Assembly: GCF_000661955.1 (NCBI RefSeq)
Contig: NZ_CP007597.1
Span: 434,001 to 498,000 of the forward strand
Length of the DNA stretch: 64,000 nt
Source: Stenotrophomonas rhizophila
GTDB taxonomy: Bacteria > Pseudomonadota > Gammaproteobacteria > Xanthomonadales > Xanthomonadaceae
Direction: 5' to 3'
The translations under genes and the position numbers were made by a program. The notes below the pieces were generated by a model, which was not told where the DNA came from, ran no database searches, and worked only from the letters and a program-made list of their open reading frames with translations. Below are positions 46,246 to 55,354 of this stretch, one piece after another (position 1 is the first letter of the stretch; every line of letters begins with the position of its first letter).

Positions 46246-46461
46246 CTACGTCTCCTTGTGATTGGTTATTGCTGGCCGAATCTAATCAATCCAGATGACA
46301 CATCTATCGATATGTCGGGACTTAGGTTCCGCAGTGGGACGTGCGTCAAGGAATTGGCGGGGGTTCTTTTTTTTTAGAAGCTGAAAAGCCGGGGCAAAAG
46401 CAGGAGCCAGAGCTGGAGCCGTGAAGCCAGAGCCTCGGTTGGCCGGTCCTCCAGGCTGGGC

Positions 46462-54012: not shown

Positions 54013-54102
54013 GGCCCGCGCTCACGGTGGCTGAACACCGCCGTCGCAGTTGCGAATGAAACATTTTGCGCCGCACAAAAGCTGTGCTATCAATACTCCC
54101 CA

Positions 54103-54183
54103 ATGAACGCACGCCCCGCCAATTCCTACTTTTGGTATTACTTTCCGAAGCCACCGGCGGAGGAAGGCATGCGCTCACCCTGA
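54103..54183 (+). CDS. Aromatic leader peptide of the DAHP synthase attenuator
   Basis: A 26-codon frame (too short for routine gene calls) encodes MNARPANSYFWYYFPKPPAE and then EGMRSP. Seven consecutive residues, S-Y-F-W-Y-Y-F, hold two Phe, three Tyr and one Trp. The position, a Rho-independent terminator 23 bp downstream and the DAHP synthase gene after it are the classical layout of a transcription attenuator. Scarcity of any aromatic amino acid would stall the ribosome over these codons. A GGCGG segment at 54156-54160 can pair with CCGCC at 54211-54215 in the terminator as an antiterminator. I see no clear Shine-Dalgarno before the ATG. Confidence 0.85.
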   Translation: MNARPANSYFWYYFPKPPAEEGMRSP

Positions 54184-54206
54184 AGAAACCTTCAGACGCA
54201 TTCCCG

Positions 54207-54237
54207 AAAGCCGCCAGCGCACCTGGCGGCTTTTTTG
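54207..54237 (+). terminator. Attenuator terminator upstream of DAHP synthase
   Basis: AAAG, perfect 8-bp stem GCCGCCAG / CTGGCGGC with a 5-base loop, followed by six T (54231-54236). It lies between the aromatic leader peptide and the DAHP synthase start, so ending transcription here blocks expression when aromatic amino acids are plentiful. Confidence 0.9.
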
Positions 54238-54280
54238 TTGCCGCCGCGCTGGGGACCCCCACTTCCAAGGAGTTTCCCCC

Positions 54281-55354
54281 ATGCCCCCGCACACCGACGA
54301 CCTGCGCATCCGCAAGATCGAACCGTTGACCCCGCCGGCCCAGCTGCTGGCCATGCTGCCCTGCGACGATGAAGCCTCCGACACGGTCAGTGCCTCGCGC
54401 GCGGCCCTGCACGAAATCCTGCACGGCCGCGATGACCGCCTGGCGGTGGTGATCGGCCCGTGCTCGATCCACGACCCGGTGGCCGCCATCGAATACGCCC
54501 AGCGCCTCAAGCCGCTGCGTGACGCCTTTGCTGACGAACTGGAAATCGTCATGCGCGTGTACTTCGAAAAGCCGCGCACCACGGTGGGCTGGAAGGGCCT
54601 GATCAACGACCCGGACCTGGACGGCAGCTTCAACATCAACAAGGGCCTGCGCGTGGCGCGCGGCCTGCTGCGCGACATCAACAAGCTCGGCCTGCCGGCC
54701 GGCGTGGAATTCCTCGACGTGATCTCGCCGCAGTACATCGCCGACCTGGTGGCCTGGGGCGCGATTGGCGCGCGCACCACTGAGAGCCAGGTGCACCGCG
54801 AGCTCGCCTCGGGCCTGTCGTGCCCGGTGGGCTTCAAGAACGGCACCGACGGCAACATCAAGATCGCTGCCGACGCGATTGGTGCTGCGTCGAATCCGCA
54901 TCACTTCCTGTCGGTGACCAAGGAAGGCGGCACCGCCATCGTCGCCACCGCCGGCAACCCGGATTGCCACGTCATCCTGCGCGGCGGCAAGACGCCCAAC
55001 TACGACGCCACCCATGTGGAAGCGACCAGCCAGACCCTGGCCAAGTCGCACCTGGCCGCGCGCATCATGATCGATGCCAGCCACGCCAACAGCAGCAAGA
55101 ACCCGGAGAACCAGCCCAAGGTCATCGCCGACATCAACGCGCAGCTGGCCAACGGCGAAGAGCGCATCGTCGGGGTGATGGTGGAAAGCCACCTGGTGGC
55201 CGGTCGCCAGGACCTTGTCGAAGGGCAGCCGCTGACCTACGGCCAGAGCATCACCGATGGCTGCATCGGCTGGGACAGCTCGCTGGCCGTGCTGGAAAGC
55301 CTGGCCGAAGCGGTGCGCGCGCGCCGCGCAGCGCGGGTGCGCGAAGCGGCGTAA
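54281..55354 (+). CDS. aroG: 3-deoxy-7-phosphoheptulonate (DAHP) synthase, class I
   Basis: This 357-residue enzyme joins phosphoenolpyruvate and erythrose 4-phosphate, the first step of the shikimate pathway. Class I markers are plain: VVIGPCSIHDPVAAIEYAQR, VYFEKPRTTVGWKGLINDPD, SFNINKGLRVARGLLRDINK, GARTTESQVHRELASGLSCP, GFKNGTDGNI and IMIDASHANSSKNPENQP. Feedback-sensitivity subtype (Phe, Tyr or Trp) cannot be decided safely, so the symbol aroG is a family-level choice. The mRNA leader with an aromatic peptide and terminator indicates attenuation. A SMAG repeat follows 46 bp after the stop. Confidence 0.95.
   Translation: MPPHTDDLRIRKIEPLTPPAQLLAMLPCDDEASDTVSASRAALHEILHGRDDRLAVVIGPCSIHDPVAAIEYAQRLKPLRDAFADELEIVMRVYFEKPRTTVGWKGLINDPDLDGSFNINKGLRVARGLLRDINKLGLPAGVEFLDVISPQYIADLVAWGAIGARTTESQVHRELASGLSCPVGFKNGTDGNIKIAADAIGAASNPHHFLSVTKEGGTAIVATAGNPDCHVILRGGKTPNYDATHVEATSQTLAKSHLAARIMIDASHANSSKNPENQPKVIADINAQLANGEERIVGVMVESHLVAGRQDLVEGQPLTYGQSITDGCIGWDSSLAVLESLAEAVRARRAARVREAA

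Follow-up and report, generated by a model that had tools for sequence, protein, structure and literature searches.

A predicted ribosome-mediated transcription attenuator with an aromatic leader peptide upstream of the DAHP synthase gene aroG

The region preceding the DAHP synthase gene (aroG) in the window (i.e. the whole stretch of DNA analysed here, 64,000 nucleotides in length) very probably acts as a ribosome-mediated transcription attenuator of this gene, as judged from its nucleotide sequence and from comparison with related loci. Three features by which leader-peptide attenuators are recognised are apparent in the sequence: (i) a short ORF with control codons, (ii) an intrinsic terminator, and (iii) a predicted antiterminator which shares an arm with the terminator and would begin just past a ribosome stalled on the control codons. 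In addition to what had been proposed in a preliminary description of this DNA, the present analysis revealed a longer, three-helix antiterminator, a usually fixed gap of 11 nt between the control codons and the antiterminator arm, and a leader mRNA that is predicted to be leaderless.

Anatomy of the aroG leader region

The features of the region are shown in Table 1. The leader ORF (54103-54183, plus strand) starts with ATG, ends with TGA (54181-54183) and encodes a peptide of 26 codons, MNARPANSYFWYYFPKPPAEEGMRSP, with SYFWYYF in its middle. Re-reading of the window sequence confirmed this frame to the base, as proposed in the preliminary description, as well as the complementarity between GGCGG (54156-54160) and CCGCC (54211-54215), the latter being situated in the 5' arm of the terminator. 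The perfect 8-bp terminator stem (GCCGCCAG, 54210-54217; loop CGCAC, 54218-54222; CTGGCGGC, 54223-54230) followed by six T residues (54231-54236) was also found as described; when the flanking AAA/TTT pairs are counted, the stem is extended to 11 bp (54207-54217 paired with 54223-54233).

Table 1. Features of the aroG leader region and their coordinates within the window.
Feature	Position	Strand	Basis
Operator-like element GTTGCGAATGAAAC, upstream of the presumed -35 region	54049..54062	+	Loose pattern, 137/144 unique upstream sequences
Predicted extended -10 TGCTATCAA, ending 9 nt before the leader ATG	54085..54093	+	Conserved upstream pattern
Leader peptide ORF MNARPANSYFWYYFPKPPAEEGMRSP	54103..54183	+	Direct reading; aromatic-run leader in 151/151 family loci
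Control codons TAC TTT TGG TAT TAC TTT (Y F W Y Y F)	54127..54144	+	Direct reading; F, Y and W in the run of 150/151 family loci
Predicted antiterminator 5' arm GGCGG, within the leader ORF (codons of ...PPAEEG...)	54156..54160	+	With CCGCC-type partner in 149/151 family loci
Predicted inner antiterminator helices GG(C)ATGCG (54166-54173) : CGCAT(T)CC (54197-54204) and CTGAAG (54180-54185) : CTTCAG (54190-54195)	54166..54204	+	RNA fold, modest pair-count support
Intrinsic terminator, 11-bp stem AAAGCCGCCAG / CTGGCGGCTTT, loop CGCAC, T-run 54231-54236	54207..54236	+	Found in 151/151 family loci
DAHP synthase, type I-alpha (AroG-like), 357 aa, regulated gene	54281..55354	+	NCBIfam models; AAGGAG at 54267-54272

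The best-scoring model for the DAHP synthase ORF was NCBIfam NF006723 (AroG; 571.7 bits, cut-off 568). TIGR00034 (general aroFGH), NF009395 and NF009396 (Trp-sensitive AroH) also scored above their cut-offs, and the feedback type of the enzyme is therefore not fixed by the model scores. The top matches among solved structures were Phe-regulated DAHP synthases (1gg1, 5cks). The host genome contains a single copy of the type I-alpha gene, together with one type II DAHP synthase.

Of 144 unique sequences upstream of the leader, 140 carry an extended -10-like element of the TGnTATCAAT type whose end lies at a distance of 7-9 nt from the leader start codon. This distance is 6 nt in one more sequence, and the pattern was not found in the other three. 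A Shine-Dalgarno-like 4-mer precedes the leader in only 1 of these 144 sequences, versus 99 of 141 loci in the case of aroG itself. The proximity of the -10 element and the near absence of a Shine-Dalgarno sequence suggest that the leader mRNA is leaderless or nearly leaderless. By eye, a similarly close TATA-like box is present in Bradyrhizobium, Mesorhizobium and the Rhodanobacteraceae; no such box was seen in the Burkholderiaceae leaders inspected in the same way, and these do not appear to be leaderless. Attenuator transcripts of Corynebacterium glutamicum were reportedly found to be leaderless by Neshat in 2014.

Further upstream, the operator-like pattern ends 38-41 nt before the leader start codon (137/144 unique upstream sequences). 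This element, GTTGC...(T)GAAAC / GCAAC, forms a perfect GTTGC-N4-GCAAC palindrome in some relatives. Seven sites of this type were detected in the host genome, versus one for a reversed-pattern control, and inspection of the ORFs revealed no common gene context at the other six genomic sites. The GTTGC element is a possible operator.

A simple consensus scanner reported neither the leader terminator nor a sigma-70 promoter at the leader, which we attribute to the AAA/TTT pairs consuming the T-run and to the -10 sequence TATCAA, which is devoid of the required T.

The hairpin might merely be the terminator of the upstream gene, since it is located approximately 200 bases beyond the end (54012) of a same-strand ORF, and the small ORF might then represent a chance frame. 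We consider this extremely unlikely. A conserved promoter-like element intervenes between the upstream ORF and the hairpin, and the aromatic codons, their spacing and the antiterminator are conserved across families. Moreover, among all ATG-initiated ORFs of 12-45 aa in the window (216 on the plus strand and 175 on the minus strand), the leader is the only one with at least six aromatic residues in eight, and one other has five. When 64-kb sequences with matching dinucleotide composition were simulated 30 times, no ORF with at least five aromatics in eight was obtained, which argues against a chance frame. A small ATG-initiated ORF with a Phe run, MTHLSICRDLGSAVGRASRNWRGFFFFRS, observed at position 46295 of the window, probably results from the in-frame reading of a T-run.

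Conservation and distribution of the leader

The family set comprised 151 loci carrying this DAHP synthase. They originate from 150 genomes, all belonging to the window's family (one genome was represented twice). The gene is present in 90 of 91 genomes of the window's genus, and in 73 of 247 sampled genomes of the family (14 of 54 genera). The main tally included all 151 family loci and 80 named loci, with no rows dropped, and an ORF was scored as a leader if a stretch of eight residues contained four or more aromatics. The locus closest to the window's gene among those named was L002 (86%).

The proposal of an attenuator with an aromatic leader peptide upstream of the DAHP synthase gene is strongly supported by this comparison. 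A leader ORF and an intrinsic terminator were detected in each of the 151 family loci, and a GGCGG arm within the ORF, with a matching terminator arm, in 149 (it is absent in L216 and L236). The Tyr, Phe and Trp codons, whose loss in related genomes had been named beforehand as speaking against the proposal, occur together in the run of 150 of 151 family loci, the sole exception being L213, which has no Trp codon. The aromatic codons of the 93 unique leaders show synonymous variation (TTT 210, TTC 39, TAT 75, TAC 192), which indicates that it is the amino acid, and not the base, that is kept. The Phe codons of the leaders are mostly TTT (210 of 249), as opposed to those of the DAHP synthase genes (TTT 13 and TTC 137 of 150 Phe codons; 26 genes). 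Slower decoding is one possible reason for this opposite bias, and avoidance of RNA structure is another.

The synonymous changes also bear on the question of whether the region is a metabolite-binding riboswitch or a protein-dependent attenuator. A conserved RNA with alternative hairpins upstream of a biosynthetic gene would be compatible with either of these, but the most constrained part of the region is precisely the codon run in which synonymous changes occur. Furthermore, neither the window nor any of 13 related loci gave a match to an Rfam 15 family at its gathering score. We therefore regard such a mechanism as very unlikely. A weak match to RF01859 (Phe_leader) overlaps the terminator region (22.7 bits versus a gathering score of 55), and the element is not a member of this family. 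A match to asX2, an sRNA family of Xanthomonas, on the minus strand of the window (54208-54268; 21.7 bits versus a gathering score of 70) is probably due to chance, and asX2 gave no match at its gathering score in the 13 related loci.

A sequence-only model of the leader (R1), built from 43 family sequences, was used to search the 247 family genomes. Matches with E <= 1.4e-14 were obtained in 73 genomes, which are exactly the 73 carrying the gene. All of these strong matches are located on the contig and strand of the gene, 14-123 nt upstream of it (72 of 73 within 60 nt). The next of the listed matches had an E value of 2.2e-6, and no aromatic leader ORF was found in nine weaker matches that were inspected, including those spanning most of the model. 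Among the matches listed, the element is thus found in the sampled family only in association with the DAHP synthase gene. One weak R1 match (positions 287-407 of L293, G057:C1:3518000-3518800) contains a terminator-like hairpin and a T-run shortly before the frame MSTNDLPQIKIAVVGYGSQGRAHALNLRE, which we take to encode a ketol-acid reductoisomerase; this hairpin is possibly another attenuator in the window's genus.

The short terminated RNA, or the peptide, might act in trans as an sRNA or a small protein, with cis attenuation being secondary. There is a precedent for this, since the trp attenuator of S. meliloti is described in PMC10117765 as giving rise to a dual-function sRNA and to a functional peptide from a leaderless ORF; its trpL is reported there to be leaderless. 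The leader studied here is likewise predicted to be leaderless and its peptide is well conserved. However, the conservation of the 3' half of the peptide can in large part be explained by the need to encode GGCGG, the aromatic positions hold amino acid rather than base identity, and the strong model matches in the family occur only upstream of the DAHP synthase gene. A predominant role in trans is therefore improbable, and attenuation in cis is the preferred explanation.

Beyond the family, a similarity search with the DAHP synthase gave at least 590 named genome contigs, of which the best 80 were analysed. The complete set, i.e. aromatic leader, terminator and GGCGG, was identified in 44 of these 80 loci, and in 30 of the 44 the run includes F, Y and W. 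Leaders of the same design that encode different peptides precede the gene in the Rhodanobacteraceae, Burkholderiaceae, Oxalobacteraceae and Rhizobiales, as exemplified by MSAKFYFYFFWYLRPLADREG (Burkholderiaceae), MITVATSYFWYFSYDSSLAAGGSRSI (Bradyrhizobium) and MILTSTRYYFWFYGYPMPLAEVGARS (Dyella). None of the nine Oxalobacteraceae loci with a complete set has a Trp codon in its run. No complete leader was found in the loci of Enterobacterales, Vibrionales and Rhodocyclales among the best 80 named contigs. With regard to the more distant DAHP synthases of the class, a match was obtained in 239 genomes; the 26 newly fetched loci, which scored best after those of the family itself, yielded a single complete leader (L256).

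On the gene tree, the leader label changes 13 times, compared with 27.2 in shuffles. The label was applied strictly: L002 was scored as a gene without a leader as a dropped duplicate, and L032, L034 and L048 were scored in the same way for having only four aromatics in eight. The 13 changes are therefore probably an overcount.

Predicted alternative RNA structures

The free RNA beyond a ribosome stalled on the aromatic run of the window leader is predicted to fold as a single hairpin (-23.0 kcal/mol) composed of three helices: (i) GGCGG:CCGCC, (ii) GG.ATGCG:CGCAT.CC and (iii) CTGAAG:CTTCAG. This fold and that of the terminator, which are mutually exclusive, emerge from computation, as do the anatomy and the conservation of the region described above. 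The antiterminator fold exceeded the terminator hairpin in stability in 76 of 81 leaders (38/40 family and 38/41 named; L168 and L204 were omitted), and the pairing probability of its core exceeded 0.5 in 74 of 81 (37/40 and 37/41, respectively). Seven of the 81 folded leaders leave the chosen core outside the antiterminator.

Spacing and permutation analyses were performed on unique leaders with at least five aromatics in eight and a terminator found. Of the 175 entries, 169 were placed; L216, L236, L030, L033 and L047 are without GGCGG, and L058 was set aside. Of 128 unique family leaders, 124 have a distance of 11 nt from the last aromatic codon to GGCGG, and the other four have one of 14 nt. 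In the 41 named-locus leaders this gap is 11 nt in 17 cases, 14 nt in 10, 17 nt in 6, and takes other values in the remaining 8.

In an alignment of 43 sequences, the terminator pairs were almost invariably retained (pairing in 99.8% of 473 cells), and 4 of the 11 pairs had changed on both sides, versus 0.3 in shuffles. The core of the antiterminator, which comprises 5 bp in the clade of the window genome versus 7 bp in many relatives, hardly varies inside the family. In the case of the pairs flanking this core, 82 leaders gave a count of 115 with their own partner arm versus 105.3 +/- 2.7 with permuted partners (5 of 5000 permutations as high), and the 41 named leaders alone gave 67 versus 57.4 (1 of 5000 as high); relatedness was ignored in both tests. 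The inner helices are paired in only 75% and 69% of cells. Within them, 22 cells had changed on both sides, whereas the shuffles gave 12.0 (6 of 500 reached this count, shared ancestry being uncorrected), but the number of inner-helix pairs with such two-sided changes was not exceptional (6 versus 4.4; 56 of 500 shuffles as high), and some slid controls matched the inner helices on single measures (e.g. covariation score of 0.087 at +1 versus 0.086). The stretch between the two arms folds better than its dinucleotide shuffles (mean z of -1.2 for 41 family and -0.8 for 41 named leaders). RNAalifold, applied to the antiterminator stretch without L216, L217 and L236, retained only the five core pairs plus three others. 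The predicted antiterminator is conserved, with modest covariation.

A 1:2 protector hairpin of the kind known from trp was also considered. Pairing of GGCGG with the N-terminal codons had a value of 0.54, versus 0.72 in base-shuffled controls, and no sign of selection for such a hairpin was found. In our judgement, such a hairpin is not a defining feature of the wider class of leader-peptide attenuators.

Proposed mechanism, amino acids sensed and relation to known systems

We infer the stalling of the ribosome, the termination of transcription and the identity of the amino acids sensed from the features described above. Transcription would start at the leader ATG or a few bases from it, and a ribosome would translate the 26-codon peptide. 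If charged Tyr, Phe or (through one codon) Trp tRNA were scarce, the ribosome would stall in the Y-F-W-Y-Y-F run. The GGCGG arm, which begins 11 nt past the last of these codons, would then be available for pairing with CCGCC in the three-helix antiterminator. The terminator 5' arm would thereby be captured, and RNA polymerase would read into aroG. With charged tRNAs plentiful, the ribosome would reach the stop codon, which lies inside the antiterminator hairpin, the terminator would fold and transcription would end near 54236. The GGCGG core is perhaps located just behind a ribosome positioned on the stop codon, in which case masking would act on the inner helices and not on the core.

It is plausible that a single leader of this type senses all three aromatic amino acids. 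The preliminary description had contrasted this with the trp, phe and his leaders, each of which senses a single amino acid, but that contrast overlooks leaders responding to several amino acids, such as those of ilvGMEDA and thr. The ilv leaders, with codons for the three branched-chain amino acids, provide the nearest logical parallel, although they precede another gene. More generally, the enterobacterial trp, phe and ilv attenuators likewise consist of a short ORF with clustered codons for the product and of an antiterminator and a terminator sharing one arm. The trp and phe leaders differ from the element described here in that one amino acid is sensed, other genes are controlled, and no match reaches the Rfam gathering scores.

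Taken at its widest, the finding would mean that one leaderless peptide senses a shortage of any of the three aromatic amino acids and, by acting on one DAHP synthase gene, controls entry into the shikimate pathway in the Xanthomonadales, most of the Burkholderiaceae examined (where the leader is, by eye, not leaderless) and the Rhizobiales, and without a Trp input in the Oxalobacteraceae. We put this forward tentatively, its chances being just short of even. Within the three-input reading, the case of the Oxalobacteraceae suggests that the set of inputs is tuned by codon change.

The same attenuator might effectively sense one amino acid, most likely Phe, with the Tyr and Trp codons serving as spacers of similar translation speed. 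This is a sub-case of the attenuator reading, with which its probability overlaps, and it is a serious candidate whose chances we place somewhat below even. For the aroR leader of C. glutamicum, a response to Phe but not to Tyr has been reported in spite of its F-Y-F run (PMC11802643; see also PMC4046766). The window leader has a single Trp codon, the runs of 9/9 complete Oxalobacteraceae loci and of L213 of the family have none, and the predominance of TTT among the leader Phe codons (210/249), a codon rare in the DAHP synthase genes (13/150), points in the same direction. On the other hand, F, Y and W are all retained in 150/151 family loci and in 30/44 complete named loci, and the retained Tyr and Trp positions are hard to explain if any slow codon sufficed.

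Other genes of aromatic biosynthesis in the host genome (G000:C1) were also inspected. Approximately 190 bases before the trpE match at 321882 (L282) there is an ORF, VSILTTPHTLSSARRWWRWWPVAV..., with an RRWWRWW run, which is likely to be a Trp-only leader, separate from that of aroG. Inspection of the 600 bases preceding the pheA match of the host genome revealed no aromatic run, and that of the 500 bases preceding the type II DAHP synthase gene (G000:C1:3599397-3600701, minus strand; L244) revealed no small ORF rich in aromatics.

Two systems reported upstream of genes for the same enzyme resemble the element described here. In C. glutamicum, aroR, which precedes the DAHP synthase gene aroF, likewise encodes a leader peptide with Phe and Tyr codons, and ribosome stalling on it is said to raise transcription under Phe limitation (PMC11802643 and PMC4046766). 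It differs from the window leader in having F-Y-F without Trp and in originating from an actinobacterium, the likeness described here being one of enzyme function and codon idea. In Acholeplasma, the uORFC-13-1 motif upstream of aroF likewise combines a candidate uORF, in which one or more Phe codons occur, with an intrinsic terminator; this motif, likened here by description and not by sequence, differs in belonging to another lineage, in that only Phe is named, and in having 24 representatives (PMC8632094). Attenuators have also been predicted upstream of tyrA operons, some of which include DAHP synthase genes, e.g. in Vibrio (PMC1173090, where they are taken from another database). In the open-licence literature, we found the C. 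glutamicum and Acholeplasma cases only and no proteobacterial aroG leader, although an earlier mention is possible; none was found in the accessible parts of PMC2965389, PMC1173090, PMC1262725, PMC5343134, PMC4842269 and PMC4603805. Ribosome-mediated attenuation is thus a known kind of regulation, including one DAHP synthase case, and the widely conserved aroG leader, which is not listed in Rfam, is new so far as we found.

If the proposed mechanism is true, it would explain how the first step of aromatic amino acid synthesis is controlled in plant-associated and environmental Proteobacteria. The leaders would also provide a natural series (F, Y and W; F and Y only; with or without a leaderless start) that may reveal how many codons, and of which amino acid, an attenuator needs.
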